Source: a virus. Taken from it: a stretch of 27,539 nucleotides of DNA. Below, one piece after another: positions 3,871-24,400 of the stretch (position 1 is the stretch's first letter; the number at the start of each line of letters is the position of its first letter). The notes beneath the pieces were generated by a model. The model was not told the DNA's origin. It did not search any database and saw only the letters and a program-made list of their open reading frames with translations. The DNA lies in the IMG/VR virus record IMGVR_UViG_3300036801_000200, positions 1 through 27,539 of that record; one strand, 5' to 3'. The translations under genes and the position numbers were made by a program.

Positions 3871-4617
3871 GTGTATCGCTCGACCGTCGTCACCGCCGCG
3901 GCAACGGCCTCCGGATTAACGACGCTGCGCAACCTGAAGCTCGATCTCGACGTCACTGACACAGCCACTGACGTCTATTGGCAGAGACAGATCGCCATCG
4001 CATCGAGCCTGATCCAGCAATATTGCAGCCGGGTCTTCGCGCGGCAGACCTATCGCGACGACTTCCATTCGTCGATAGGCATCGGGTGGGCATTCCGAGC
4101 TCCGGATGTTCAGGCTCCGGCGTGGCCGATGGCGCCGGCGGGAGCGGGTTTCGCGATAGCGCTTCAAAATGTGCCGGTCATCACCATAGGCCAAGTTCTG
4201 CTCGACGGAGCGGCCATCGACCCCGCGCAGTATTCACTCGACCTCACGGCGTCTGGCCAGTCCGACTCCGGATTCCTCTACCGGCTCGACGGCGACCTTC
4301 GCCGCGTGCCATGGGATTTCACGGATTGCTCGGTCACTTACGATGCCGGCTACGACCTGCCAAGCGCTGATGTTCAGGCCAATCCATTGCCGCCTGAGAT
4401 CGAGCACGCCGCAGTCATGATGGTGATCGCCAACCGCCAGGCGGGCCGGCTCTCGTTCTCGACGCGGGACCCGTATCTGCGGGCCGAAACCGTCGAAGGG
4501 GTCGGCTCTATGCAATACGCGCAAACGCCGATCGGCGGTGGCGGCGGTCCGGTCGGGACTATCCCGCAGGCTGTGATGCAGATGCTGGATCCGTTCGTAA
4601 TTCCAGTCGTCGCTTAA
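3871..4617 (+). CDS. Head-tail connector protein, gp6-like
   Basis: 248 residues. This would be the adaptor ring that docks below the portal and starts the neck. The N-terminal part has the pattern of the HK97 gp6/SPP1 gp15 adaptor family: TTLRNLKLDLDVTD, then a helix with WQRQIAIASSLIQQYCSRVF (a semi-conserved I-x-x-Y-C-x-R motif), followed by beta segments including VPVITIGQVLLDG and SVTYDAGYDLP, and a C-terminal helix EIEHAAVMMVIANRQ. The start is GTG three bases after the previous stop, without a good ribosome binding site, so translation may be coupled. The other neck genes normally adjacent are 8 kb downstream, beyond the sugar-enzyme cargo. Confidence 0.83.
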   Translation: MYRSTVVTAAATASGLTTLRNLKLDLDVTDTATDVYWQRQIAIASSLIQQYCSRVFARQTYRDDFHSSIGIGWAFRAPDVQAPAWPMAPAGAGFAIALQNVPVITIGQVLLDGAAIDPAQYSLDLTASGQSDSGFLYRLDGDLRRVPWDFTDCSVTYDAGYDLPSADVQANPLPPEIEHAAVMMVIANRQAGRLSFSTRDPYLRAETVEGVGSMQYAQTPIGGGGGPVGTIPQAVMQMLDPFVIPVVA

Positions 4618-4634
4618 AGGGGCAGCGTAATTTT

Positions 4635-5795
4635 ATGGGATGGGCGGCAATCTGCCGGCTTGGCGGTATCGGCGATAATCTGATCGCTACCAGCGTCTTA
4701 CCAGGGCTGAAGGCGAAATATGGGAAGGTCGAGGTCATCACCGGTCGAGGCCCGAACGCCTCGGTCTTCGAGCACAATCCTCATATCGACAAGCTGACCT
4801 TTAAGGACGACGGCGATTTCCCGGGGACCGGCCCAGATGATTGGCAGAAATGGTTTGCAATTCGGGCCAAAGAGTACGACGCATTCTATCACCTCTCGCA
4901 TTCCTGTGAGATGATCCGCGCCTTGTTCACGGGGCAAACTCAGTTTTTCTGGCCGGACAGCATGCGCCGCAAGCATTGTTTCCAGAATTATTTGGAAACG
5001 GTACACGATATATGCGAGTTGCCTTATGCGCCGATCGGGCCGGAGTATTACCCTACGGACGAAGAGGTCGGCCGCGCCAAGCAGGACAAAAACGAAAAGA
5101 TCCGTCAAGGCCGCCCAGGCCCCGTCATCGGATGGGTGTGCTCAGGAACGCGCATCGATAAACGTCATCCGCGCGGTCACATCGCTGTCGCGCGCCTCAT
5201 CGGCGAATTAGACGCGACTGTAGCCCTCTTCGGTGGCCCGGATAAAGAGCAGGCCATCGCAACAGAGATCGACCGCCAAGTCCGCCATCATCACGGCACT
5301 GTCGATGGTTTGCGGACCTGCATTGATCCCAATCGAGAGGTGACGAATTGGCCGATCCGGCGCAGTCTGGCGCAGCTTCGGGAATGCGACCTCGTCGTCA
5401 CGGTCGATACCGGTCCGATGTGGGCGGTCGCGATGCTTCCGATCCCCAAGATCGTCATCCTGTCGCACGCCAGCGCCGAGAACATCACCAAACGTTTCGT
5501 CAATGCGACCACGCTGATCGCCGATCAGCAGAGGGTGCCGTGCTGGCCTTGCCATCGGCTGCACAACGATAACACCTGGTGCAAGCCCAACGCCGAAAAC
5601 GACGGCGCCGCCTGCGTGTCTGACGTCACTGTCGAGGCCATTGTGTCGACTGCGCGAGCGTGGCTGCAGAACCCGGCGCGTGCCCGGGAGAAGATCGCCG
5701 GCGTCTTCACGTCGGAGGATGTGATAGCGGCATGCAAGGCGCTCCACTCTCCTCGCGCCGATGTCCTCGGCAGCGCGGCGTTCAAAGTGGCATGA
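4635..5795 (+). CDS. GT9 family glycosyltransferase (heptosyltransferase-like)
   Basis: 386 residues. GT9 enzymes move a sugar, classically ADP-heptose, onto lipopolysaccharide core or another acceptor. The N-terminal motif CRLGGIGDNLIATSVLPGLK (residues 7-26) matches the GT9 G-D-x-L-x-x-x-x-x-L signature, and the C-terminal donor half carries LVVTVDTGPMWAVAML. The usual family motif there is DTG-x-x-H; here Trp replaces His, which may alter donor choice or activity. Near the C-terminus is a Cys-rich segment (VPCWPCHRLHNDNTWC) that could bind metal or form disulfides. It is the first of the cargo genes; its stop overlaps the epimerase start (ATGA). Acceptor and donor are unknown; a role in virion or host-surface glycosylation is inferred. 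Confidence 0.87.
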   Translation: MGWAAICRLGGIGDNLIATSVLPGLKAKYGKVEVITGRGPNASVFEHNPHIDKLTFKDDGDFPGTGPDDWQKWFAIRAKEYDAFYHLSHSCEMIRALFTGQTQFFWPDSMRRKHCFQNYLETVHDICELPYAPIGPEYYPTDEEVGRAKQDKNEKIRQGRPGPVIGWVCSGTRIDKRHPRGHIAVARLIGELDATVALFGGPDKEQAIATEIDRQVRHHHGTVDGLRTCIDPNREVTNWPIRRSLAQLRECDLVVTVDTGPMWAVAMLPIPKIVILSHASAENITKRFVNATTLIADQQRVPCWPCHRLHNDNTWCKPNAENDGAACVSDVTVEAIVSTARAWLQNPARAREKIAGVFTSEDVIAACKALHSPRADVLGSAAFKVA

Positions 5796-6832
5796 GGGTT
5801 TACATAACCGGCATCGCCGGGTTTCTCGGATCGCACCTGGCTGATCACCTGGCGGCGGCAGGGCACACGGTTTTTGGCTGCGACGATTTCTCGACCGGCT
5901 CGCTGGACAATCTGACCGGTCTAGTGGGGTTTGCGTGGCGAAACATCATTGATCTTGTCCCTGAAGATCTCGAAGGGTTCGACGTTGTCTACCACTGCGC
6001 TGCCGCCGCTTATGAGGGGGCGTCGAATTTCTCGCCAGCCTTCATCAGCCGCAACATCTATGCGGGCTCGGCTGCGGTGTTCTCGGCGGCCATTGCGTCG
6101 GGCGTCAAACGCGTGGTCTTCACCAGCACGATGGCCCGCTACGGCGAGCCTTACGTGAACCTGCCGTTCATCGAGGATCAGTCGAATTCCGCCGGCAGCT
6201 GGCACAGGACCGTCACGCCGGTAGACCCATATGGGATCGCAAAAGAGGCGGCCGAGCGACTGCTGATCAACCTCGCGCAGACGCATGGCGTCGAGTGGTC
6301 AATCGCGGTGCCGCACAACATCTACGGCCCGCGTCAGCGATACGTCGACCCTTACCGCAACGTCGCGGCTATCTTCGCAAACCGGATGCTGCAGGACCTG
6401 CCGCCGCAGATCTACGGCGACGGACGCCAGGTGAGGTGCTTCTCTTACATCGACGACGTCGTTCCGGGACTGGCCCGCATGGGTCTCGACGACGTAACCA
6501 GAAGCCAGATCATCAATCTTGGCCCCGATAGCGGGGAGGTCTCCATCGTTGAATTGTCGGCATTGCTGGCCGAGATTGTCGGATATCGAGGCCCGGCCGA
6601 ATATCTCCCCGGGAGGCCGCGAGAGGTACGGCGCGCCGTCTGTTCCTCGAACAAGGCGCGCCAGCTTCTGGGCTTCGAGCAGAAGACCGAGCTTCGCCAG
6701 GGGCTCGAACAATTGGTCGACTGGATCCGCGCACGCGGGGCGCGGCCGTTCGAGCATCACCTTGCGATCGAGCTGAAAGACAGTCCGCTGTTGCCGGCTA
6801 CCTGGTATAGACCGCTGAAAGGATTCCGTTGA
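5792..6832 (+). CDS. NAD-dependent sugar-nucleotide epimerase/dehydratase (extended SDR)
   Basis: 346 residues, the usual size for GalE/UDP-glucuronate epimerase/dTDP-glucose dehydratase relatives. The Rossmann motif G-x-x-G-x-x-G is at residues 7-13 (TGIAGFLG), an acidic NAD-ribose site at DDFSTGS (31-37), the Ser/Thr catalytic region at FTSTMARYGEP (110-120), and the Y-x-x-x-K pair at Tyr147/Lys151 in DPYGIAKEAAE. Downstream, VPHNIYGPRQRY, FSYIDDVV and the sugar-nucleotide-binding GRPREVRRAV are family features. The start ATG overlaps the GT9 stop; a longer reading from 5660 lies inside the GT9 gene. It probably makes the activated sugar used by the adjacent transferases, but the exact reaction (epimerase, decarboxylase or dehydratase) cannot be decided. 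Confidence 0.9.
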   Translation: MRVYITGIAGFLGSHLADHLAAAGHTVFGCDDFSTGSLDNLTGLVGFAWRNIIDLVPEDLEGFDVVYHCAAAAYEGASNFSPAFISRNIYAGSAAVFSAAIASGVKRVVFTSTMARYGEPYVNLPFIEDQSNSAGSWHRTVTPVDPYGIAKEAAERLLINLAQTHGVEWSIAVPHNIYGPRQRYVDPYRNVAAIFANRMLQDLPPQIYGDGRQVRCFSYIDDVVPGLARMGLDDVTRSQIINLGPDSGEVSIVELSALLAEIVGYRGPAEYLPGRPREVRRAVCSSNKARQLLGFEQKTELRQGLEQLVDWIRARGARPFEHHLAIELKDSPLLPATWYRPLKGFR

Positions 6833-7227
6833 TGTCGAACGTGGCCACTTATGCCGCGCGCGCGATGCTGGACTATGTCAATCGCGGCTCGACGAACAAT
6901 AAGCCGGCAGCTTGGCTTTGCGCGCTCTCGACGGGCAGTCCTGGCAATGCCGCCTTCGTCGGAGAACCGGGAACTGCATCCGGATATTCCAGGCAAAGCT
7001 GCACCTGGGGCGACAGCACGGGCGCGAGCGCCTTCAACGTCAACGCGATGACGTTCGGCCCGTTTTCGTCGAACTGCAACATATCCGGGATCGCGATCAT
7101 GGATAGCGCGATGGCAACGAACGCCGGCAACGAGTTGTGGTACGGACTTCTTGCGACGGCTCGGGCGATCACTTCGGGCGACTCTCTGATAATCGCGGGG
7201 AGCGCATTAACTTCTCAGGTGACGTAA
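6832..7227 (+). CDS. Gp80-like putative tail/fibre protein, copy 1
   Basis: 131 residues. The start ATG shares a base with the epimerase TGA. The pattern is that of the small phage Gp80-like family, often annotated as tail fibre: an N-terminal helix (AARAMLDYVN), a strand with PAAWLCALSTG, a GYSRQSCTWG segment, a central FNVNAMTFGPFS strand, SGIAIMD, WYGLLATARAITSGDSLII and a final short strand. The gene at 11922-12359 shows the same order of motifs and is probably a distant paralogue. It is translationally coupled to the sugar enzymes, so it may be a virion protein that evolved or travels with them. Family assignment rests on pattern recognition. Confidence 0.68.
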   Translation: MSNVATYAARAMLDYVNRGSTNNKPAAWLCALSTGSPGNAAFVGEPGTASGYSRQSCTWGDSTGASAFNVNAMTFGPFSSNCNISGIAIMDSAMATNAGNELWYGLLATARAITSGDSLIIAGSALTSQVT

Positions 7228-7229
7228 TC

Positions 7230-7613
7230 GTGGCGATCGAAGAAGAGTTAGCCGCGCCGCCGGCCGAAGATCTGCCGCAGGGCGCATGGGGCGATCTTCC
7301 GCCGGCCCCTAGCATGGTGACGCTAGGGCTGCCGCCGGCTCCGTTCGGGCCCGAGCACGTCGGGCTTTGGTATCACGAAGCGCTGCAGCTCCCGGAAACG
7401 CGCGTTACGGGCTGGTTCGGATGCGCGATCGGCACCGGTGGCGCTGATGGCGACGGGGATGTGCAGCTGTTCTTCTACAACGGCAACCATCTTGAGCCGA
7501 CGATGCGGCTAGTCGTCAGTCAAGCGGACTTGATGCAGATCTTCGCCGGCCTTGGGAAGCTGCTCCACGAGCGCACGCCATTTCTCAAAGAGTGGAACCT
7601 GCGCCAGATATGA
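7230..7613 (+). CDS. Hypothetical protein, 127 aa
   Basis: The start is taken as the GTG two bases after the preceding stop, with CAGGTG just upstream; an in-frame GTG/ATG region further upstream lies inside the previous gene. The N-terminus is Pro/Ala-rich (LAAPPAEDLPQGAWGDLPPA), followed by a domain with VGLWYHEALQLPETRVTGWF, a Gly/Asp-rich loop (GTGGADGDGD), QLFFYNGNHLEP and a helix. No signal peptide or membrane segment is apparent. I do not recognise the family. It overlaps the following putative glycosyltransferase by four bases (ATGA), so the two are very likely translated together and may act together. Confidence 0.68.
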   Translation: MAIEEELAAPPAEDLPQGAWGDLPPAPSMVTLGLPPAPFGPEHVGLWYHEALQLPETRVTGWFGCAIGTGGADGDGDVQLFFYNGNHLEPTMRLVVSQADLMQIFAGLGKLLHERTPFLKEWNLRQI

Positions 7614-8329
7614 GCCTCAAGCTTCCGATAGCGATGGTCGCGATCGACAACGTGGCCCACGAGCTGACGCGGATGGCGATCGAGGACTCGCTGAGGCAGA
7701 TCGAGCCCGAGCAGATCATCATCCTAACCGACGCGCCAAACATGGTCAGGGTTTCTGGCGCGGAATATCATTTCTTCGACGGCGGATACCCGGCGGCGAT
7801 GGCTGCATTGTGGCACCAGGTGCCGCCTCTGTTGATGGCGCCGCACATGATCTGGCTGCAGTGGGATAGCTGGGTCCTCGACGCCGGGCAATGGGCCGAC
7901 GAGTTCCTGCAATACGACTACATCGGCGCGCCGTGGCCGTGCGGCGAAGGATCGGTGTGGCATCAGCTCGGCTATCGCCCGGGCAGCAATGTCGGCAACG
8001 GTGGCTTTTCGCTGCGCTCCAAGGCTCTCGCGGAACGGCTCGCGACAGAAGCATATCCGCTAAAATTCCCGGAAGACGATGCGATCTGTCGCCTTTATAG
8101 AGGGCGACTGGAGATGGACGGGTTTGCTTGGGCGCCTGAGCATGTAGCGCAGCGGTTCTCCGTGGAATGCGCGCTGGTCACTGGGCCCACATTCGGGTAT
8201 CACAACTGCGCGCACTGGCCGCGGATATTGCCGCGCGAGGCTCTTGCAGAGCGGCTTCGGGCGGCTTCGCCATATGCGCTTAAAAATCCGGCTCTCCGTA
8301 GTGTCATGGATTGGATGGCCCAGAAATGA
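7610..8329 (+). CDS. DUF5672-like putative glycosyltransferase
   Basis: 239 residues; the start ATG overlaps the previous stop. The sequence carries the blocks I associate with DUF5672 proteins, thought to be GT-A-type glycosyltransferases: WLQWDSWVLDAGQWADEFL (82-100), YDYIGAPWP (102-110), NVGNGGFSLRSKAL (127-140), FPEDDAIC (153-160) and FAWAPEHVAQRFSVE (172-186). GNGGFSLRS and PEDD are the most diagnostic. Such genes are common in polysaccharide clusters; in phage they are rare cargo. With the GT9 enzyme, epimerase and methyltransferase it forms a plausible glycan-building set. Substrate unknown; catalytic function is inferred from the family, not shown by the sequence. Confidence 0.83.
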   Translation: MSLKLPIAMVAIDNVAHELTRMAIEDSLRQIEPEQIIILTDAPNMVRVSGAEYHFFDGGYPAAMAALWHQVPPLLMAPHMIWLQWDSWVLDAGQWADEFLQYDYIGAPWPCGEGSVWHQLGYRPGSNVGNGGFSLRSKALAERLATEAYPLKFPEDDAICRLYRGRLEMDGFAWAPEHVAQRFSVECALVTGPTFGYHNCAHWPRILPREALAERLRAASPYALKNPALRSVMDWMAQK

Positions 8330-9000
8330 GTGGTTTCCCGAGGCCGGATGGGGCGTCCGCGATCTACTCTCCGACATATTGGGCAGGTGTTTTCGACAGA
8401 CCGTCGATGGACGATGCCAAGGGCATCATCCTGACGCCTGACAGCGTGCGGTCGACCAAGCAGCGCTGGGAGACCGAGACCCCGTACCTCATGGGCCTGA
8501 TCCGCGAGCATATGCCGCGGCTGACCCGTGGGGCTCGCTGTCTCGATTACGGATGCGGGATAGGCCGCTTGGCGAAGCCGATGACGCAAGACGGCTGGCA
8601 TGTTATGGGCGTCGATATCAGCCCAGCGATGATAGGCTTTTCGCTGCAATACGTCGCTTCGGACAACTTCCTGCCGTGTCTCCCCGGCATCTTCGATCAG
8701 CTGCTCGGATTTGGGATCCAGGTCGAGGCGGCGGTGTCGGTATGGGCTCTGCAACACGTCGCAAAGCCTAGAGAGGATATCGCGCGTATCAAGGCTGCGC
8801 TCGTTCCTGGCGGCAAGTTGTTCGTCATGAACGCGTCGCGGCGGTTTGTGCCGACGACTGTCGGATGGGTCGACGATGGGTTCGACATTTGGGGCGAACT
8901 CTGCACGCAGCTCTCGTCCATCGATTTCCAGCAAGCCGATCTGGCTTTTGTCTCAGGGACGCCGACGGCGTACTGGGGCTTCTTCGAGAAGACCGCCTAA
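8326..9000 (+). CDS. Class I SAM-dependent methyltransferase
   Basis: 224 residues, starting at an ATG that overlaps the DUF5672-like stop (ATGA). Motif I is clear: RCLDYGCGIGRLAKPM at residues 71-86, the glycine-rich S-adenosylmethionine loop. An acidic residue after strand 2 (GVDISPAM, Asp97) would bind the ribose. Later motifs include AAVSVWALQHVAKP and VPGGKLFVMNA. The N-terminal 45 residues (SPTYWAGVFDRPSMDD) lie outside the Rossmann fold and resemble class I enzymes that act on small molecules or sugars. In this setting O- or N-methylation of a sugar or glycan is the best guess, but a protein or small-molecule substrate is not excluded. Confidence 0.88.
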   Translation: MSGFPRPDGASAIYSPTYWAGVFDRPSMDDAKGIILTPDSVRSTKQRWETETPYLMGLIREHMPRLTRGARCLDYGCGIGRLAKPMTQDGWHVMGVDISPAMIGFSLQYVASDNFLPCLPGIFDQLLGFGIQVEAAVSVWALQHVAKPREDIARIKAALVPGGKLFVMNASRRFVPTTVGWVDDGFDIWGELCTQLSSIDFQQADLAFVSGTPTAYWGFFEKTA

Positions 9001-9020
9001 AAGGGAGCAACGAAACACAG

Positions 9021-9395
9021 ATGGCCACGCTACAGTCCCAGGCCGTGCAAATGGCCAACGGTTTGATCAGCGTCGGGCAGGCCTTAGCCGCCGCCAAGGT
9101 GCAGATCGACCAGCTGTCTGCTCAATACACGCAGTTGACCTTGGGAACGACGTTGGCCGCGCTTGCTACCGCCGCGGTGAATTCCGACGGTTCTCTCGGA
9201 ACGCAGGATGGTAGCCCGACTAGCGGGCATGTGATTGACATTCGAGCCATTACTGGACTCTCGCGCGCGATCTCCGCCAGCGACCTCGGATCGTTGCTGT
9301 CGGGGTTGCAGGCAGTCTCAACGCTGCTGTCGGGCTCTTCTGTGAGCCAGCAAGGTCAAATGCCGCAGATATTGGCGAAGATCGTGGGCGGCTGA
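9021..9395 (+). CDS. Hypothetical small helical protein, 124 aa
   Basis: The start ATG is preceded by AGGGAG (9003-9008), though with a long spacer. The N-terminal 45 residues look helical and perhaps coiled-coil (QSQAVQMANGLISVGQALAA, KVQIDQLSAQY); the rest is Ser/Gly/Leu/Ala-rich (SDLGSLLSGLQAVSTLLSGS). There is no signal peptide. I recognise no family. It sits between the sugar-modification enzymes and the run of fibre-like proteins, in the same operon, 20 bases after the methyltransferase stop. A structural or assembly role is possible, but nothing in the sequence proves it. Confidence 0.62.
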   Translation: MATLQSQAVQMANGLISVGQALAAAKVQIDQLSAQYTQLTLGTTLAALATAAVNSDGSLGTQDGSPTSGHVIDIRAITGLSRAISASDLGSLLSGLQAVSTLLSGSSVSQQGQMPQILAKIVGG

Positions 9396-9396
9396 T

Positions 9397-9852
9397 TTGG
9401 GCTTCGCCGCCGCCGCATCTTTCCCGCAAGCACAGTCCCTCCTCGGCCTCCCGGCAGGCTGGGCGCGCGGCCTGGGATATGTGGGCGGCGATGCATATCT
9501 CGATTATTGGTGTACCATCTCGTTGGCGACCGGCGCGCTTATCGACCCGGCCGGCTCGCTGGTGCTCTATCTGGCGATCGCGCAGGATCCGCAGCACTTC
9601 ACGGACGGGATAGATCCGAATTCTCCGCTCGATCAGTCCGCGATGATCGGCGTCGCCACACAAACGAACTTCGTGCAGCGCCTCGGCGGCGTCGGTCTGC
9701 TGCCGAATACGCGCTATAGCTTCAACGATTTTTCGATCAAAGCCGCCCTCGGCGGCACGCCGACATATTGGGCCCCGCTGGTGCTCAACCTCTCCGGAGG
9801 CCCGCTGAGCATCTCGATATCGCCTTACGCAACCTACACACTGCAAACCTGA
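9397..9852 (+). CDS. Hypothetical putative virion protein, 151 aa
   Basis: The best start is TTG one base after the preceding TGA; no clear ribosome binding site is seen, so reinitiation is likely. The protein alternates aromatic and small residues and appears beta-rich (YLDYWCTISLATGALIDP, GSLVLYLAIAQDP, NTRYSFNDFSI, ISISPYATYTL). No transmembrane segment or catalytic motif is evident. The family is unknown to me. Its composition and neighbourhood (glycine-rich adhesin-like and Gp80-like genes) make a receptor-binding or fibre-accessory role plausible, as inference only. Confidence 0.6.
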   Translation: MGFAAAASFPQAQSLLGLPAGWARGLGYVGGDAYLDYWCTISLATGALIDPAGSLVLYLAIAQDPQHFTDGIDPNSPLDQSAMIGVATQTNFVQRLGGVGLLPNTRYSFNDFSIKAALGGTPTYWAPLVLNLSGGPLSISISPYATYTLQT

Positions 9853-9856
9853 CCCC

Positions 9857-10267
9857 ATGGCTGTTGGGCTCATTTACGGCAAGGGCTACGGGCGCCTGCG
9901 CGCAGTCGTGACAGGTGGAGATCCGGTGCCGCTGATGGGGCAGGGTGAAGCTGTCCTGACGATCGATGATGCGCAATATGCCGTGGCAGCTGGGCTCGCC
10001 GGCCTTCAGCAGCTGGTCAACGCGGCAACCAGAGCTGCCCCGTCTGGCGATCGCGCGGCGATGGTTGATGTCGCCGGGAGCGTCGTCTCGGTGCACCAGA
10101 TCGATCCTGGATGCGGCGATATGGCTTTCTCGGGTCAATCGCTGGTTCCCAATGTCATGGCCGAACCCGGGTGGGTATTCGCGGCAGGCAATCTGTTGAG
10201 ATTTGCCACGGGCGCGCGCCGGCGCGCATTCCGCGGCCGACTAAGGGGCAGGATGCCAGCGTCGTAA
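9857..10267 (+). CDS. Hypothetical protein, 136 aa
   Basis: Starts at ATG 4 bases after the previous stop and ends directly against the ATG of the glycine-rich gene (TAAATG). The central part contains LTIDDAQYAVAAGLAGLQQL, a helix-like stretch, and SVVSVHQIDPGCGDMAF. The C-terminus is strongly basic (ATGARRRAFRGRLRGRMP), which could contact nucleic acid or an acidic partner. No family recognised. It is part of the tightly packed fibre-like block; a chaperone or structural accessory role is speculative. Confidence 0.6.
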   Translation: MAVGLIYGKGYGRLRAVVTGGDPVPLMGQGEAVLTIDDAQYAVAAGLAGLQQLVNAATRAAPSGDRAAMVDVAGSVVSVHQIDPGCGDMAFSGQSLVPNVMAEPGWVFAAGNLLRFATGARRRAFRGRLRGRMPAS

Positions 10268-11245
10268 ATGACGACGATTTATTTGACCTCTGGGACGTCT
10301 TGGACAGTTCCGAACGATTGGTCGAGCATCAACACCATCGAGTGTATTAGTGGTGGCGGTGGCGGAGAAGGCCCTGGTCATCACACAAATTGTGCTGGCG
10401 GCGGCGGCGGCGGCGGCTATTCGAAGATAAGCAATCTGGCGCTTTCAGGTGGCGCCTCTATCACAATAGCGATAGGAGCAGCCGGATCCGGTAGCCAAAA
10501 CGCCGCGGGGGGCAACGGAGGCGACACCTGGTTTAATGGCGCCTCTTTGGGCGCGGCATCTGTTGGGGCGCAAGGTGGTCGCGGCGGCGGTGGCGTAACG
10601 CAAGGCACCGGCGGATTAGGCGGCTCTACCGGGTCCGGCGTAGGTACGACCAAATTCGCTGGAGGCAGCGGCGGGACAGGTGCGAGTGAGGCAACGTTCG
10701 GCGTTGGCGCCGCTGGCGGTGGTGGAGCTGCCGGTCCAAGTGGTGCCGGCCGGGCTGGTGGTAGCAATGTGAACTATGGCGGCTCCGGCGGCGGCGGCAA
10801 TGGCGGAGGGTCTGCAACCGATGGTGCCGTAGCCTCAGGCGTGGACAGCAACGGAGGCGATGGCGGCAAAGGAAACGACAATACAGCTGGCGGCGCAGGC
10901 GGCACGGTAGTTACTGCTGGCGGGTCTGGCTCTCACGGCTCGGGCGGCGGCGGCGGCGTCGGCGATGGCAGCGGTGGCGAGGCCGGTGGGGATGGCGGCA
11001 ACGGAGTTGAGTGGGATTCGAGCCATGGTTCCGGTGGTGGCGGTGGTGGCGGGGGCGGCGACAACAGTTTCGCATATGTGAACCCCGGCGGCCAAGGTGG
11101 CGCAGGCGGATTATACGGCGGCGGCGGGGCTGGGGCTGGATTTAGCGCGGCGCCGGGCGGCTTCGGCGGCGCCGGCGCTCAAGGGCTGATCATCATTACG
11201 TACACGCCGATCCATGGCAATTGGATTATCTTGAAGGGACCGTAA
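10268..11245 (+). CDS. Glycine-rich adhesin-like protein
   Basis: 325 residues, roughly half glycine. The N-terminus (LTSGTSWTVPNDWSSINTIE) and the C-terminus (GAQGLIIITYTP) match the start and end pattern of the glycine-rich domain found in phage tail and fibre proteins. Between them are many GGGGGG, GGSGG and GGAGG runs, which in known glycine-rich phage adhesins such as gp38 of T-even-like phages form polyglycine-II sandwiches. The DNA is GGC/GGT-rich as a consequence; these short simple repeats are coding, not a CRISPR or satellite. The likely role is host-receptor contact or a fibre tip. It directly follows the previous gene, and the next gene starts one base after its stop. Confidence 0.8.
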   Translation: MTTIYLTSGTSWTVPNDWSSINTIECISGGGGGEGPGHHTNCAGGGGGGGYSKISNLALSGGASITIAIGAAGSGSQNAAGGNGGDTWFNGASLGAASVGAQGGRGGGGVTQGTGGLGGSTGSGVGTTKFAGGSGGTGASEATFGVGAAGGGGAAGPSGAGRAGGSNVNYGGSGGGGNGGGSATDGAVASGVDSNGGDGGKGNDNTAGGAGGTVVTAGGSGSHGSGGGGGVGDGSGGEAGGDGGNGVEWDSSHGSGGGGGGGGGDNSFAYVNPGGQGGAGGLYGGGGAGAGFSAAPGGFGGAGAQGLIIITYTPIHGNWIILKGP

Positions 11246-11246
11246 G

Positions 11247-11921
11247 ATGCCCGATGGCGATGCGATCTTTTCAGGCGCTGGGGGGCTCGATGGCGCCGCG
11301 GTCGTAAGCCTGGCTGCGATATCAGGGTTTGCCGCCGGCGGTGGGTTTGTGCCTGCGTTCGTGCTCAATGAGCAGGCTGGAGCGAGCTTCGCTATATCGG
11401 GCGGGTTTGCCGCTGTCGCGTCGCGTGGCGATACCGCAGCGTTCGTCGGGGCTGGCGCCTTTACGATCGACACGCGGTTCGACTACGCGAGCAACCCAGC
11501 GGGCATCGCCGCGCAAGGCGGCCTCATTGCGAACAGCGACGTCGGGCGCATCTCGCGCACGCAGATCCCGTTCGACTCAGGCGCGGTTGATCTGCAGTTG
11601 CTCGCCGGCGACGATTGCGAGCTCGATGTCAGCTTGTTCGATATGGGCGGCGGGGCGCTCAATCTCACAGGCGCCTCGGCGCAGTGGTTTCTCGCCGACG
11701 CCTACGACCGGTCGAGGATCTTAATCACAAAAACGTCGGCTTACGGAGGCGGCATTACGATCGCAAGCCCGACAATGGGAACGATGGTCATAGCCATAGC
11801 GCCAGCCGATACCGCTGCACTCGGCGGACAGCCCTACTATCACGAGCTGAAGATAATCCTCGGATGGCGGAACACGACGCTTTCCGGATCCGCAACGATC
11901 GAGAAAACGACGGCGCATTAA
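11247..11921 (+). CDS. Fibre-like protein with 20-residue F-x-G-x-G repeats
   Basis: 224 residues. The N-terminal 75 residues contain four imperfect repeats centred on Phe8, Phe28, Phe48 and Phe66 (IFSGAGGLDG, GFAAGGGFVP, SFAISGGFAA, AFVGAGAFTI), spaced 18-20 residues. The C-terminal part looks like the beta-sandwich domain of phage baseplate/fibre proteins: CELDVSLFDMGGGALNLTGA, then TMVIAIAPADT and YYHELKIILGW in the order usual for that domain. The same repeat style recurs at the start of the tail-tip gene at 25891, suggesting a common module. Probable minor tail or fibre component; partner unknown. Confidence 0.68.
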   Translation: MPDGDAIFSGAGGLDGAAVVSLAAISGFAAGGGFVPAFVLNEQAGASFAISGGFAAVASRGDTAAFVGAGAFTIDTRFDYASNPAGIAAQGGLIANSDVGRISRTQIPFDSGAVDLQLLAGDDCELDVSLFDMGGGALNLTGASAQWFLADAYDRSRILITKTSAYGGGITIASPTMGTMVIAIAPADTAALGGQPYYHELKIILGWRNTTLSGSATIEKTTAH

Positions 11922-12359
11922 ATGGCTGGCTTCAGTGACTCGGTCGAAACTTCCATCATGGCAATGATCTTCACGGCGACCGCGTGGGCGAATTACGCCG
12001 ACAATGCAGCCTCATCGCCGCAGACGCAACTCGCGTGGGGGTTGCACACTGGCGACCCGACCGACGTCGGCAATATGCTCACAAACGAGATCGGCTACAC
12101 GTCGTATGCTCGCGCCTCGACGAACCGCGCGACCGGGGCCGGCGGCATGGTGGTGTCCGGGAATTCCGCGTCGCCGGTCTCGGACATCAATTTCCCGCTG
12201 GGCACCGGCGGCACAGGAACGGCGAGCTTTTTCTCGGTGGGGAAAACCGGCGGCGGCTCGGCGCCGATATTGATGGCTGGCGTCTTGTCGCCTTCGCTGC
12301 TCTGTGGCAACGGCGTGCAACCGGTCTTGACGAACTCGACGGTCCTAACGATTGACTGA
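11922..12359 (+). CDS. Gp80-like putative tail/fibre protein, copy 2
   Basis: 145 residues, with the ATG directly after the previous TAA. It shares the plan of the gene at 6832: an N-terminal helical stretch (SIMAMIFTATAWANY), QLAWGLHTGDPT, a GYTSYARASTN segment, a central VSDINFPLG strand, SFFSVGKTGG, ILMAGVLSP and a final NSTVLTID strand. The Gp80-like family is commonly annotated as tail fibre, though its function is not well established. It closes the fibre-like block, immediately before the neck genes. The next gene begins within its last codons. Confidence 0.7.
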   Translation: MAGFSDSVETSIMAMIFTATAWANYADNAASSPQTQLAWGLHTGDPTDVGNMLTNEIGYTSYARASTNRATGAGGMVVSGNSASPVSDINFPLGTGGTGTASFFSVGKTGGGSAPILMAGVLSPSLLCGNGVQPVLTNSTVLTID

Positions 12360-12780
12360 TCATTCGGCCGATGTGCGTCGCTGCCTAGAGGAAATAGATA
12401 TTGAAGGCATCCAGCGGCTCTGGTCGGTGATTGCGCCGGGCGCGCCGCAGCCGGCGAGCGACTCCGCTGCGCTGCTGACAATCCACATGGCGCGCGTGAG
12501 ATGCCAGGCCATTAACGCAAGGCAGCGCGACTATTCGCGAGCCTGGCTCGGCGAACGTGAGCGGCAGCAAAAGGTTTATGCGGTCGGAATAGCCGTGCTC
12601 GCGGCAAATCCAGCGCGTCGCGACGAGGCCTCCGATGTCCGCGCCGCGATGGCAGAAAGCGTCTCGGATAGTATCCGGGCTGGGATCGACATCGAGACTG
12701 AGGGCGATGAGATCCGTAGGCGCATGTTAGCGGCCCGGGCGAAGGCGCGCCGGCACGATCGCGCGGCCAGCCCAAGATGA
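12352..12780 (+). CDS. Hypothetical helical protein, 142 aa
   Basis: The reading starts with a TTG overlapping the previous gene by 8 bases; a GTG a few codons further in is an alternative start. The protein is almost entirely helical and charged (RCLEEIDIEGIQRLWSVI, INARQRDYSRAWLGERERQQ, AESVSDSIRAGIDIETEGDE), ending in a basic tail (RRRMLAARAKARRHDRA). I do not recognise the family. Its stop overlaps the head-closure start (ATGA), placing it at the head of the neck module, where it may be an assembly factor. Start uncertain. Confidence 0.62.
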   Translation: MTDHSADVRRCLEEIDIEGIQRLWSVIAPGAPQPASDSAALLTIHMARVRCQAINARQRDYSRAWLGERERQQKVYAVGIAVLAANPARRDEASDVRAAMAESVSDSIRAGIDIETEGDEIRRRMLAARAKARRHDRAASPR

Positions 12781-13103
12781 GTCCGGAGTCGGCAATAGCG
12801 ACGCTGGACCGGCAGATAGCAGCGCACGGCGAAGCCACAACCTTGGTTTTCGTGGATACCGGCGCATCTGTCGAAAAGCCGCGCCGCGCGTTCGTGCGGG
12901 GCTACAGCCCGCAGGAACTGGTCGGTGGTATTCTGCAGGGCGACAGTTTGGTCATTATCTCGCCGACCGGCGAGGAATTGCCCCGTCTGCCGCGCCGTAA
13001 CGACAGGGTCATAATCGACGGCGCGACCCGCCATGTCGAGAACGTGATCCCGGTCCGGCTTAACGACGAGCTCGTCCGCCTGAGTCTGCAGACCAGAGGG
13101 TGA
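12777..13103 (+). CDS. Putative head closure (stopper) protein
   Basis: 108 residues, the usual size of head-completion/stopper proteins of the SPP1 gp16/lambda FII type. The protein is mainly beta: ATTLVFVDTGASV, AFVRGYSPQELVGGILQGDS, LVIISPTGEELPRLPRRNDR, VIIDGATRHVENVIPVR. The last block, with a G-D-x-V-x-I-x-G-like turn and strand, is typical of stopper-like folds. The assignment leans heavily on gene order: it precedes a tail-completion-sized gene and a tail-terminator-sized gene. The start overlaps the preceding stop (ATGA). Confidence 0.66.
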   Translation: MSPESAIATLDRQIAAHGEATTLVFVDTGASVEKPRRAFVRGYSPQELVGGILQGDSLVIISPTGEELPRLPRRNDRVIIDGATRHVENVIPVRLNDELVRLSLQTRG

Positions 13104-18034: not shown

Positions 18035-18466
18035 GCGCTGCAGCTCGACCGGCAGCGGCTTCGGCTTCGCGTTGAGCCCTGAAATACAGAGGTCTGCGGT
18101 CGCCTTTACCCAGCTTGCTGTTATCGCAATGCGCTCCGCCTCGTTTTGGGAGTGTAGCGCCGATCTCTGCCAAAGCTGTCGGATCTGGTCTTCGTTGAGC
18201 TTGCACTGCTGGACCGACAAGTCTTCGAAGCTGGAGAATTGCTGGATCTCCGGCGGTGCGGCCCGCTGCAGAAGGATCGCGACAGCCAAAAATGTGCCGA
18301 GCAGCACGAAGAGAAATGCCGCAGCCCTACGGTTTATATTTCCTCCCGCTTCGCGCCCGGCTCGACCATGCCACCAATCCAGTGCCATTTCCCGATCTAA
18401 AGGTGAAACGCCGGCCGCATCCATAATCTCTCGCATTCGCATGATTTGGGCGGCTTTCTGCGCCAT
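18023..18466 (-). CDS. Single-pass membrane protein on the opposite strand
   Basis: 147 residues from the ATG at 18466 to a stop overlapping the gpT-like stop by 12 bases, tail to tail. It exactly fills the space between the chaperone and the tape measure, which has no + strand gene. Protein layout: a charged N-terminal region (about 45 residues, with Arg46-Arg47), one hydrophobic segment at about 48-66 (AAAFLFVLLGTFLAVAILL), then a hydrophilic domain with two Cys (88 and 127), consistent with an N-in, periplasm-facing anchored protein. No family is recognised. An upstream in-frame start (18619) would overlap the tape measure; internal ATGs are alternatives. No clear ribosome binding site. 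Possibly a moron such as a superinfection-exclusion protein, but this is speculation. Confidence 0.62.
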   Translation of the reverse strand: MAQKAAQIMRMREIMDAAGVSPLDREMALDWWHGRAGREAGGNINRRAAAFLFVLLGTFLAVAILLQRAAPPEIQQFSSFEDLSVQQCKLNEDQIRQLWQRSALHSQNEAERIAITASWVKATADLCISGLNAKPKPLPVELQRLAR

Positions 18467-18469
18467 AAC

Positions 18470-18475
18470 AAGGTG
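18470..18475 (+). promoter_or_regulatory. Ribosome binding site deciding tape measure start
   Basis: AAGGTG followed by a 6-base spacer precedes GTG at 18482. It favours that start over the in-frame ATG at 18446 and the GTG at 18473, which is inside the site itself. Confidence 0.62.
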
Positions 18476-18481
18476 TCGATC

Positions 18482-21400
18482 GTGGCCGTAAGCCTGACGC
18501 AGATAAAAATTCAGGCCGACCTTGACGCCTCGGGATATATCGCCTCGGCACAGAAAAAGGCCGCATCCGATCAGCAAATGATCGATTCCGGCAATAAGTT
18601 GTCCGGGACCCTCGACCAAACCGAGAGAAAGCTTGGCACTTCCGGCTCAGCCATAACTCGGTTCATAAATTCAAACGACGCTGCCGCCAAGGCGACGGCA
18701 ACTTATGAGGATGGTGTAAGACGGCTGCAGGCCGCCCTCGACCGCGGCTCAATTTCTCAAGACCAATTCACCCGGCAATCGCAGCTTCTCTCCGACCGCT
18801 ATATAATCGCGAGTGCATCCGCTCAAAAACTCCAGCAACAGAACGCGTCTCTCGCAGCCTCATTGCAGACAGCAGGGAGCGCCGCGAATGCCTCCGCTCA
18901 ACAATTTCAGCAACAGAACGCGTCTCTCGCCTCATTGCAGACAGCCGGGAGCGCCGCGAGCGCCTCCGCTCAACAACTGCAGCAACAGAACGCGTCTCTC
19001 GCAGCCTCATTGCAGTCAACCGGGAGCGCCGGGAGCGCCGCGAGTGCCTCGGCTCAAAAGCTGCAGCAACAAAGCGCGTCGCTCGCAACCGCATTGCAGT
19101 CAACCGGGAGCAGCGCGCGGCTATCGTATACCGAGCTCGAAATCTTGCGCTCCGGCGCGATCAATACCATCCAGTCTCTAGCCTCGGGAGAAGGCGCTTT
19201 CCGAACATTGACGACGCAGCTGACGCAGACCGCGCCGGCGTTTGGCGGCGTTTTACGTTATCTCGGGCTTACTTCGATTGCATTATTGCCGATCGGCGCG
19301 GCCATCGCTGTGGTAGTCGCGGGGCTCGGCACTCTCGCGTTCGCGGTCGGCCGGCTTGCCGAGACGCAACAGCAAATCAAGGATTTCAACCTTACGCTGC
19401 AGTCACTCGGATCCAACGGCCAGGCGTCCGGCGCCGATCTCCAAAAAGCTTTTGAGCAGATACGCGACAGTGGAACCTCGGCCTCACAAGCTTTGGCGTC
19501 CGTAAAGAGCGTAACGCAAAACCCGCTGATCAACCAAGCGCGTGCCGCTGAGTTGATATCTCTTGCCCGCGATATCGCGAGTGTCACAGGCGACACCTTG
19601 CCCGAGGCGCAGCAAAAGCTGACAGTCGCGCTCACCGGCGGCGTCGACGGTTTTACAAAATATGCCTTCTCGCTCAACGCGATCACGGCCGATCAGGCAG
19701 CGCTAATCCGGCAGACTGGGAACCTATCGATCGGGCTGCAGGCGCTGCATCAGCGGTTCGACGGCGATTTCACGGCGTCGCTTACGACGACGCAAAGGGC
19801 TCTCCGCGATGTCGCTGCGGCGTGGAATGGCTTCCTTGATGCGCTGGGCAATAACGGCGTTATCCAGAGCGTCGTCAATGCTTTTAAGGCTTTGGGGTCT
19901 GCCATCGCGCAGGGCACGTCCGGCATGCTGCAAACTGGCGCGGAGCTCCTCGGCGGCGGCGCGCCTGGCGCTTCGGCGCCGCTGCCTCCGAAGATCACTG
20001 GATTTTATGGCTCTCTGTCGAATTTGGAGAGCGGTGGCCAGAACATTACTCAGCGAGTTTCCGACATCAACAGCCAGAGTGGAGTGCCTGGCCAAGGGTA
20101 TTTCCAGATAACGGATCCGACGTGGCGGCAATTCGCCTCGCCGGACATACTGCGTCAGTGGCCCAGCGCTCTGCTGGCGCCCTACGCTGTACAGGAGGCC
20201 GTTGTGGCAAACATCCCGCTGTCGCGGTTTGGCCCCCGCACAGTGTCTGGCCTTCAGTCGCAATTCGGCACTCTCAATACATCATCGACTATCGGCCAGC
20301 TTGCCGGAGATGGGAATAATATCGCTTCCGGGCAGACGGCGGCCCAGCAGACTGACGCGCTCAATAAGCAGGCCGAAGCTTTCAGCAATGCGAATAAGGC
20401 GGCTGCGGCTTTCGGGGCGACATCTCAGGGGATCACTGCCTATTACGAGACTTTCACGCGGGCGTTGGCCGATGGGGCAGATAAGACCACTGCGGAGACG
20501 TTGGCGACCAACGCTCAGCGCCAGGCTCTCGCGGCTGCGGGCGTTGAATTCGGCAAGGAGAGCGACCTCGCCAAACAGGCCTCGCAGGGCGCCCTAAACA
20601 TCGCCGATGCCTTCATCGCGAGCGAGGCGGCCGGGCTCCGGGCTACCGCCGCCGTGCAGGCGACCCGCGATGTGCTCGAGAAGTTCGGCGATACGGCGAG
20701 CCATACCGCGCAGATCGAACAGGGAATGAACGACATCCTGCGCGACCAGGCCACGACAGCGATATCGACATCGCAGCAGCAGCTCGACGCGCTGACCCGC
20801 ACCACCGCGGCCAATGACAACCTCGCCGCGGCCAGTGAGCGCGGCGCCGCCGCAGTCAGAGATGCGCAAATCGCCAATCAGGCCGCCCAGGAGACGCAGG
20901 ACACTCTCGCCAAGGCATACGCCTCCGGTGACGCCGCGCTGATCGCTCGCGCTGAAGCGCTGCGGCAGCTGACCGAAGAGCAATTAAAGGCGAACGAGGC
21001 CGCTCAAGAGACGACACAGCTAAACCTGCGGACACAGTCGACCAAGCAGGATACGCAGCTTCTACAGCTTCAGCTCGACCTGCAGGGGCAGACATCGGAG
21101 CAGATCCAGGCGCAGACGATACTACTGCGCACCAAGCAGGATCTGGAGACCCGCTTCGCCAATGCCAGCGACGACAGTAAGACGAAGATAACCGCTGCCG
21201 CTCAGGCCGAGGCCGACCTCGTCATCAAGGTGGGCGAGGCGCAGGCGGCGCAGGGGCGATTAAACTCGGAAGTCCAAGAGATCGCAAACACCATCGAGAA
21301 CTCGATTGGTGGCGCTATCGACGATGTGCTGAGCGGCAAGAAAATCACCGACTGGGGATCCCTGTTCAAGCAGACGCTGATTTCGATCGCCGAGACGGTG

Positions 21401-24400
21401 ATTTCGAGCGAGTTGATCAAGCCGCTGCTCGGGTCTCTCGTCTCTGGCGTATCGCCGCAGAATGCGCAGCAGCTCGGCACATTTGGCGCTGGCGGCGGCT
21501 TGGTAAGCCAGCTGTTGGGGATAGGGCAGTCGGCGGGAGGTGCGGCGACCAGCACGCTCGGGGCCTCTACGACCGGGCTCGGTGGATTTATTAATACATC
21601 AATAGGCCCAACTCTGGGCTTTGCGAATCCTGCTTTGCAGGGCCCTACCCTGTCAGGGGCGGCGCTGGGCGAGGGGGGGCTGTTTGGCTCTACGACGCTG
21701 GGTTCGGTGCTGCCGTTTGCCGGGCTCGCCATAGGCGCCGCTGGACTGCTGGGCAGCCTGTTCGGGAACAAAACGCCGCCGACGAACGCGAGCGGCGGCT
21801 CGATCGATCTATCCACTGGAATTGCCGGCGGTATTTCCACATCAGGATCTGGGGTAAACGCCTCCGCGGCGGCTGGGCTCATCAAGGGGCTGTCGACAGC
21901 GCTGCAAAGCTTGACGCAAGCGACCGGAGGCAGTCTGCCCGAGGGCGGGATCTCTGCCCAGGTGTTCACGAACAAGGCCGGGCAGGCTGTCTATCAGCTC
22001 GATTATTCCGGCCCTCTCGGCAAGGTAACGCAGCAATTCTCCTCCGCGGCGGATGCTATAGCCGCCGCCACGCAGGCCGCCGCGCAGAACCTCACCGGTC
22101 TATCCTCGACGCTGACGATGGCATTGCAGCACATCAGCGATCCGAGCCAGGTCCAGGCCGCAGTCGCGTTCGCGAAAACCTATGATGATCTGGGCAAGGC
22201 GCAGAATTCCTTCAGCGCCGCGCTAAGCCAGATCTCGACCGACACGGTAGAGAAAACCGGGCCGTTCGAGACGGCGCTCGGCGCGATCAACGCAACATTC
22301 ACTTCGCTTAGCCAGAGCGCTCAGCAGTTCGGCCTATCGCTCGATCCGATCAATCAGGCGTTGGACAGCGCTACCAACAAGCTACGCCAGGACTTCAAGA
22401 CTGCGCTCGATGAAGGCATAGCTGGAACATCATCCGTAGCTCAATCGGTGCGCTCCCTCACGCAGTCGTATCAGCAGAACGTCGCCGCGGCGTCGGCGCT
22501 CAATTTGACCGACGCCGACACATTGCAGAAGATAGACCAGCTGCGCGACAAAAATCTCGGGTCGATCGTCGACCAGATATTCTCCGGCGTCGGGGAAGAT
22601 CCGGCAAAAAAGACCGATGTATTCACGCAGGCGCTTACAAACCTGCAGGGCGTCTTCGAGGCCGCGACCGCCTCGGCGAGCCAGCTGGGGCTGTCGATCG
22701 ACGACATCTCGGCGCGTCAGGCGGCGGCGGTCGAGCGGCTCGCCAGCGATCTACAGACGAACCTGACGAACAACGTGGCGGCGGTGTTTTCGTCCATAAG
22801 CGGCGATCCATCTGCGAAGACGGATAATTTTACGGCGGCGCTGCAAAAGCTGATGGCGGCCTTCGATTCCGCGACCGCCGATGCGGCAGCACTTCAGCAA
22901 AACCTCAACATCGATCCCCAGCGGACCGAGGCCTTGGCGCGGCTGTATGCGGATTTCTCCTCTAATGTCTATGGGATTGTGGCGAGCGCGGAGGGGCTCA
23001 CTCAGTCATCTGATCCGCTCACTCAGGCGCTGGCGCAAATAGCCGATGCCGTACAATCGTTTGCCTCGACGGCGGCAAGCGCCGGGCAGGACATCCGGGG
23101 GATTGCTGCCCTCGGCGAGACCGCCAGGGCTCAACTCGCGGGGGCGTTCAATTCCCAGATCTCCGGTCTGCTGCAGGCTATCACCGATCCCGTGCAGTCG
23201 GCAATCGATCAGGAACGCGCGGCCGGGCGGCGGCGACTTGACGACGCGCAAGCGCTCGGCGCCGACCTCGATCAGGTTGCGAATTACAACGTCGCCAATC
23301 TGCAACGGGTAACGGACGCCGCCAAAAGCTCCGTTCAGACACTTCAAACCGCCGAACAGGTCGCGGCCCAGGCATCAAGCACACTTGCCGACGCGATATC
23401 GAGCGTCACCGGAACCGGCGTCGGGCAGTTTGCGATGGCGCTGAAAAACCTTGGCGCCGCCGAAAGCAGCCTTCTAGATGCGGCCGGGAAAGCCAACCCG
23501 AATTTCAATCCTCAGCCGATCCTCCAGTCTTATGGAGACCAGGCCAATCAGCTAAGGATCGCGTTCGATAATAGCATCCAACAGTTGATCGTGGGAATTA
23601 ACGATCCCGTACAGGCCGCGCTGAATGTTGAGCTCGAGGCGGGGCGCCGGCGCGTCGCCGAGGCGGAGGCCGTCAGTGGCGATCTCGCCGCGGTCGACCA
23701 ATACAATGCTGCCAACCTGATCAAAGTCGCTCAGGCTGCGCAACAGGCGACGACGGCGATCACGACCACTGCGGCGTCGTTCAATGATCAAATCAAGCAG
23801 TTGCTTGAGGGGATCACGGATCCGGTGCAGGCCGTCATCGATGCGGAACTGCAGGCCGGTCAGGATCGCGTGACCCAGGCCCAATCGATTGGGGCTGATC
23901 TCAACCAGGTCTATGAGTATAACCGCGCCAATCTAATCAAGGTCATCCAGGCGGCTCAGGGCGCCGGCGATGGGATAGCGGATTTCTCCTCGCAACTCCA
24001 ATCGCTCCAATCGGCGCTGCAGCAGCTCACTACCGGCCCGCTATCAGGGCTCACGCCGGCGCAGCAGGTGATCCAAGCCAAGGCACAATTTCAGAGCGAA
24101 CTCGCTCTCGTGCAGGCGGGCAACCTCGGCGAGATCCCCAACCTCACGGCATCGGGAATTGCCGCCGTCCAGGCGTCACAATCTGCCTATGGAAACTCGA
24201 AACAGACGGCCGACCTGCGCGACCAGATCACGAATTCGTTGCAGGGCGTGGCGATCTCGACGGGCAAACAAGCGGTCGAAGCAGCGAGCACGACAACCGT
24301 AACGGCGTCCAATCGAGCGCAGCTTCAAACGACGCTCCGGGCGGAAGACGCGGCGGCACACTCGATATTGAGCTATCTGCAGGTGCAGGCTGACCTTCAA

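Follow-up and report, generated by a model that had tools for sequence, protein, structure and literature searches.

A GT9 glycosyltransferase beside a Gp80-type virion gene in a six-gene phage cassette: a candidate module for particle glycosylation

The window analysed here, a linear IMG/VR virus record of 27.5 kb (IMGVR_UViG_3300036801_000200; 27,539 nt), holds six consecutive genes at 4635–9000, inside its late operon. The original prediction had read these genes as a glycan-modification cassette, and the families named at that time were confirmed by Pfam matches above the curated cut-offs for five of the six. The genes are as follows, with the matches or homologues that identify them.

4635..5795, + strand: GT9 glycosyltransferase of the heptosyltransferase superfamily, GT-B, 386 amino acids (aa) (PF01075, 9.8e-8)
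5792..6832, + strand: NAD-dependent nucleotide-sugar epimerase/dehydratase, extended short-chain dehydrogenase/reductase, 346 aa (PF01370, 6e-38, 131 bits; phrog_540)
6832..7227, + strand: Gp80-like virion (fibre) protein, 131 aa, candidate glycosylation substrate (PF23140, 9.2e-20)
7230..7613, + strand: 127-aa protein with no assigned function, GTG start (51% homologue at the same place in contig L015)
7610..8329, + strand: DUF5672 protein, 239 aa, putative GT-A-like transferase (PF18922, 4.8e-16)
8326..9000, + strand: class I S-adenosylmethionine (SAM) methyltransferase, 224 aa (PF13489, 2.2e-13; PF08241, 6.1e-12)

The enzymes of the cassette

Overlaps had been described at nearly every junction of this set, and four of the five inner junctions do overlap, namely GT9/epimerase (ATGA, 5792–5795), epimerase/Gp80 (TGATG, 6830–6834), 127-aa gene/DUF5672 (ATGA, 7610–7613) and DUF5672/methyltransferase (ATGA, 8326–8329). 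The fifth does not, the Gp80 stop codon (7225–7227) being followed by the GTG start of the 127-aa gene at 7230. The GC content of the six genes, both overall and at third codon positions (GC3), matches that of the surrounding genes.

The first gene product matched PF01075 with 32.0 bits against a curated cut-off of 22, and its catalytic domain begins at residue 3. An AlphaFold2 model (pLDDT 76.9, pTM 0.80) showed the two-lobe GT-B fold and was matched by Foldseek to WaaF (1psw, E 8.9e-13) as well as to WaaC and TibC, while the GxGD, D-K and DTG motifs and four cysteines were invariant across 12 phage GT9 homologues. The modelled fold and these motifs make the first enzyme a predicted sugar-nucleotide-dependent GT-B transferase. 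It shares with WaaF and WaaC the GT9 family, the fold and the conserved GxGD and DTG motifs; unlike them, it belongs to a subfamily that is phage-restricted within the searched data and linked to virion genes, and its identity to either is about 13–17% over the model. This subfamily was not found in the searched cultured phages (INPHARED) or bacterial genomes, and a scan of the latter with GT9 returned distant GT9s only. INPHARED likewise gave no match for the cassette DNA or the methyltransferase.

The epimerase has its motifs intact (GxxGFxG at 7–13, read as GIAGFLG, and YGIAK at 147–151), and its nearest solved structure is a UDP-glucose 4-epimerase (4zrm, E 2e-47), a match from which the substrate is not predictable. 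The DUF5672 protein scored 59.3 bits against PF18922 (cut-off 24.4), and its motifs QWDSWVLD, YIGAPW and VGNGGFSLR, together with its context, suggest a putative GT-A-like transferase; a PDB search gave no solved relative, and the predicted model (pLDDT 40) was too poor and was not used. For DUF5672 the same collection gave weak matches only, in cyanophages and in a small number of records from uncultured or marine viruses (INPHARED). The methyltransferase matched Methyltransf_23 with 50.7 bits and retains motif I as LDYGCGIG, and the 127-aa protein had no match in Pfam, PHROG, NCBIfam or PDB. The Gp80 protein scored 71.7 bits against PF23140 (cut-off 27), and it also matched phrog_240 (head protein) and, with E 0.0023, the "virion-associated phage protein" of PDB 8jou. 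A defence-system reading of the cassette was dropped after a check that gave a generic methyltransferase match only.

Recurrence of the cassette and of the GT9–Gp80 pair

The complete set was found once more, in contig L015, which together with L003, L020 and L026 covers the same place in record IMGVR_UViG_3300046747_000764. All six genes stand there in window order, with identities to the window of 61% for GT9, 65% for the epimerase, 54% for Gp80, 51% for the 127-aa protein, 57% for DUF5672 and 47% for the methyltransferase. A Methyltransf_24 gene, a small open reading frame and an HNH-looking gene are inserted within the set; the last of these (L015 13154–13816, 220 residues, without a Pfam match) lies between the epimerase and Gp80, and its HNH-like sequence suggests a possible homing-type invasion of this cassette copy. 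The 21 kb fetched around L015 show no other similarity to the window, and a PF05065 capsid is absent from the 60-kb record; the six genes have therefore probably moved together, as one unit. Against the L015 homologues, purifying selection is evident on each of the six (pN/pS 0.34–0.51, with synonymous sites near saturation), including the 127-aa gene (0.41). Because the same order recurs in another contig and selection has acted on every gene, the cassette is not a chance assembly.

A partial set was observed in contig L089 (3646–7299), in which a TPR-GT9 fusion is accompanied by a nucleoside-deoxyribosyltransferase-like gene, an epimerase (57%) and, after it, a DUF5672 gene (39%), the whole lying between a terminase, called by eye, and the portal. 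Scans with single sequences had returned no loci for DUF5672 or the epimerase; scans with alignments found them. Taken by itself, the epimerase is widespread in viruses (at least 561 related stretches), and among the best 80 epimerase loci only L089 had a homologue of another cassette gene within about 6 kb. The originally proposed check, whether homologous phages carry these enzymes singly and dispersed, thus had a mixed outcome: the six-gene order was found in full once and, for GT9-epimerase-DUF5672, once more in part, but elsewhere only the GT9–Gp80 pair is constant and the partners are exchanged.

This pair was followed with a profile of the phage GT9s, which found 17 loci. The close subfamily comprises 16 contigs including the window, or 11 distinct phages after near-identical contigs were merged, and in all 16 a Gp80 gene lies just downstream of GT9, either directly or with a methyltransferase or epimerase between. 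Gp80 was present in one of 38 capsid-related control contigs (L050, which has its own transferase-type block), a comparison that serves as a guide and not as a formal test, the two groups having been picked differently. Pairwise distances of GT9 and of the adjacent Gp80 are correlated (Mantel r 0.56, p 4e-4, 11 phages). In the loci examined, GT9 stands among head, tail or fibre genes, and in L009/L017 it has a Gp77 fibre-tail adaptor gene on one side and Gp80 on the other, while a CBM60 gene stands upstream. The proposal that the phage modifies its own virion gained support from the linkage in all 11 distinct phages and from the position between Gp77 and Gp80, whereas nothing in the analysis points to the collagen-like protein, which had also been named as a target.

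Methyltransferases recur beside these genes. In L012 (8699–11092), upstream of the Gp80 gene, an FkbM methyltransferase (residues 216–365) and a GT9 (from residue 434) share one open frame, in which an internal start is possible; this natural fusion supports the earlier pairing of methylation with glycosylation. FkbM genes adjoin GT9 or Gp80 in L002, L006–L008/L016 and L010, and in L004 a 39% homologue of the window's own methyltransferase adjoins GT9. As a separate observation, blocks of GT9-methyltransferase-GT2-GT9 lie just after the capsid gene in two unrelated phages (L018 7434–11786 and L019 5157–10876), the latter block also holding a B12-binding radical SAM gene and a Methyltransf_24 gene.

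Proposed function and alternative explanations

We consider it probable, at roughly 0.6, that the cassette is a mobile virion-glycosylation module with which the virus attaches a methylated sugar to its own particle, either to Gp80 or to a virion protein encoded nearby. The genes would be expressed late, together with the particle genes. From its family, the epimerase would make or tailor a sugar donor from host nucleotide sugars, and GT9 would then move the activated sugar onto a virion protein, most likely the co-encoded Gp80-type fibre or surface protein. A further residue may be added by the DUF5672 protein, which is the weakest step, and the methyltransferase would O-methylate and so cap the glycan, a pairing for which the fusion in L012 speaks. 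The likely benefit would be a particle surface or receptor-binding part that is altered or shielded. A more specific form, to which we give tentative credence at most, is that GT9 has Gp80 as its dedicated substrate and that the two travel as a unit between unrelated tailed phages; the enzyme would glycosylate the fibre-type protein in the manner of TibC without belonging to its family, the exchangeable methyltransferase, epimerase and DUF5672 protein setting the final glycan.

Several observations weigh against particle glycosylation. The GT9 model fits WaaF and WaaC somewhat better than the protein-modifying TibC. The distance correlation could come from shared phage ancestry, and the linkage itself could be one ancestral arrangement copied between phages. 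Cultured phages also contain Gp80 genes that have no annotated glycosyltransferase next to them, so Gp80 needs no such neighbour. The last point also separates these loci from Ralstonia podophage GP4 (gp80/gp77; PF23140, PF23148; PDB 8jou), with which they share the Gp80 type, here adjoining an enzyme, and in L009/L017 the Gp77 type.

The most serious alternative, though we judge it unlikely, is that the enzymes act in lysogens or at a late stage of infection to modify host lipopolysaccharide (LPS) or a different surface glycan, with Gp80 as a bystander in the late operon; at similarly low odds, the purpose would be to keep progeny from sticking to debris or to exclude rival phages. Most enzymes of the GT9 family are LPS heptosyltransferases, and WaaF is the best match of the model. 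The hexapeptide acyltransferase and MptE-like genes of capsid relatives could act on surface glycans too. Temperate phages with LPS-modifying transferases are known, and one was predicted in a rhizobial prophage (PMC5537653). Yet GT9 is closely linked to a virion fibre gene and diverges together with it, and neither a GtrA-type flippase nor a GtrB-type bactoprenol glucosyltransferase is among the cassette proteins of the window, itself a genome fragment. The gtrABC systems of serotype conversion are likewise phage-borne glycosyltransferases, whereas the present cassette lacks both of these components and sits inside the structural operon. Genes for lysogenic conversion usually lie apart from that operon, and a place among the head connectors would be unusual for them. 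A virion target is favoured over host LPS because the neighbour that never changes encodes a virion protein, the genes stand in a late, structural region, and the enzymes fit a short methyl-capped glycan.

Improbable, in our judgement, is the explanation that only the gene order is conserved, at an insertion hot spot among late genes, and that the enzymes act separately, for example on DNA bases, or without joint selection. The strong change of partners between GT9 phages, DUF5672 and the epimerase occurring in L015 only among 17 other GT9 contigs, would fit it, and some viral glycosyltransferases act on DNA, according to work cited in PMC12619734. Against it stand the same order on two unrelated backbones and the GT9-epimerase-DUF5672 trio on a third, the methyltransferase-GT9 fusion, the coupled overlapping genes and the purifying selection on all six, as well as the lack of any nucleotide-modifying enzyme among the window genes scanned. 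GT9 is not known as a DNA glycosyltransferase family.

The resemblance to TibC invites the further idea that this GT9 represents the autotransporter heptosyltransferase family (TibC/AAH) in phages and heptosylates a fibre, and this we regard as very improbable. Both are GT-B enzymes of the heptosyltransferase superfamily encoded beside a surface protein, TibC is among the fold matches, and the four invariant cysteines form a CxxC-x9-C-x10-C finger similar to the iron finger of TibC (Cys 339, 342, 358 and 370; PMC4358343). However, the bacterial GT9s found in our scan carry a similar cysteine cluster, so the finger is not diagnostic and was dropped as a mark of TibC-type enzymes, and WaaF and WaaC fit slightly better. 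TibC also has an N-terminal beta-barrel (residues 1–97; PMC4358343), which is missing from the phage protein, the latter starting directly with its catalytic domain, and its partner is a phage Gp80 instead of an autotransporter. The phage GT9 thus falls outside the TibC family; by analogy, it may work like TibC.

Particle glycosylation itself is known. In mycobacteriophages (Che8, clusters O and F), tandem glycosyltransferases and an O-methyltransferase modify capsid and tail tube, as PMC11600133 relates from Freeman et al. 2023, and a cluster F1 relative has glycosyltransferase genes near the genome 3′ end, according to PMC11600133 and PMC11256854. The kind of system is therefore not new, and the suggestion that nothing comparable had been described was too strong, although no description of the enzyme set, the insertion site or the Gp80 linkage was found in the open-access papers searched. 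The two share phage genes for glycosyltransferase plus methyltransferase, with virion proteins as targets, in the present case by prediction. They differ in that the mycobacteriophage systems act on capsid and tail tube in actinobacteriophages, while in the window a GT9, an epimerase, a DUF5672 protein and a class I methyltransferase are encoded between connector genes and coupled to Gp80. Measured against the mycobacteriophage type, defined by at least two glycosyltransferases and a methyltransferase, the cassette has GT9 and the methyltransferase, and a second transferase only if DUF5672 counts as one. What appears to be new is the gene set, its insertion between connector genes and the Gp80 linkage.

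Only in a small number of phages has glycosylation of the particle been proved, and which proteins it affects is difficult to predict. That every GT9 of this subfamily found here lies beside a member of a single small virion protein family offers a direct, testable enzyme-target hypothesis, and the pair can serve as a marker of phages with a possible ability to change their own surface. The insertion site among the connector genes, in turn, points to where surface-chemistry genes get swapped.

The insertion site and neighbouring genes

The late operon, of siphovirus type, begins with a collagen-like gene, a ClpP-type protease, an HK97 capsid protein and the head-tail adaptor, continues with an inserted block of which the cassette is the left half, and passes on to head closure, neck/tail completion (a phrog_169 match), tail tube and a 2482-residue open frame resembling a tape measure. 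The features around the cassette are the following.

3871–4617: head-tail adaptor (phrog_442)
4618..12776, no strand assigned: inserted block of 8.2 kb between head-tail adaptor and head-closure Hc1
11922..12359, + strand: second Gp80-like gene (PF23140, 9.3e-7, over the cut-off; 56% homologue in L013/L014)
12352..12780, + strand: 142-aa gene with no assigned function (44% identity, matching place in L013/L014)
12777–13103: head-closure Hc1 (phrog_161)

The block, which reaches past the end originally given (9000) to about 12776, splits adaptor and head-closure genes that normally abut. In L045–L047, which have a similar capsid protein, an Hc1 homologue directly follows the adaptor with 4-base overlaps; in the capsid relative L040, the adaptor and a neck-gene homologue stand close together, and the same region is compact in a Bradyrhizobium prophage whose capsid is related. 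The right half of the block recurs in L013/L014, where a homologue of the second Gp80 directly follows GT9-Gp80 and precedes a homologue of the 142-aa gene. This half also contains, at 10268–11245, a very glycine-rich gene of 325 residues with a weak match to a tail-fibre-assembly PHROG.

Capsid relatives were rejected as carriers of the cassette, none of 58 contigs having GT9, the epimerase, DUF5672 or the 127-aa gene, although many of these contigs are short; the same profiles detected a positive control. Several of them carry other enzymes in the same connector region, and for this reason the adaptor/head-closure region looks like an exchange site for genes of surface-chemistry type. In L048 (6718–8638), a hexapeptide acyltransferase gene is accompanied by one for a protein that is GT8-like, as judged only by eye, and by an MptE-like gene ahead of the adaptor, and L050 (8258–11009) has a similar set, in which the acyltransferase alone was confirmed by Pfam. 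In the connector region, L042 (12795–14217) holds a methyltransferase and an MptE-like gene, and L053 (6370–8706) a weak MptE-like match.

At the left end of the window, the collagen-like gene (1–807) is open at the contig start, and its true start therefore lies outside the window. In the tape-measure-like protein (18446–25894), an inner stretch, NLESGGQN...GYFQITDPTWRQFA, resembles in sequence a lysozyme or transglycosylase domain.

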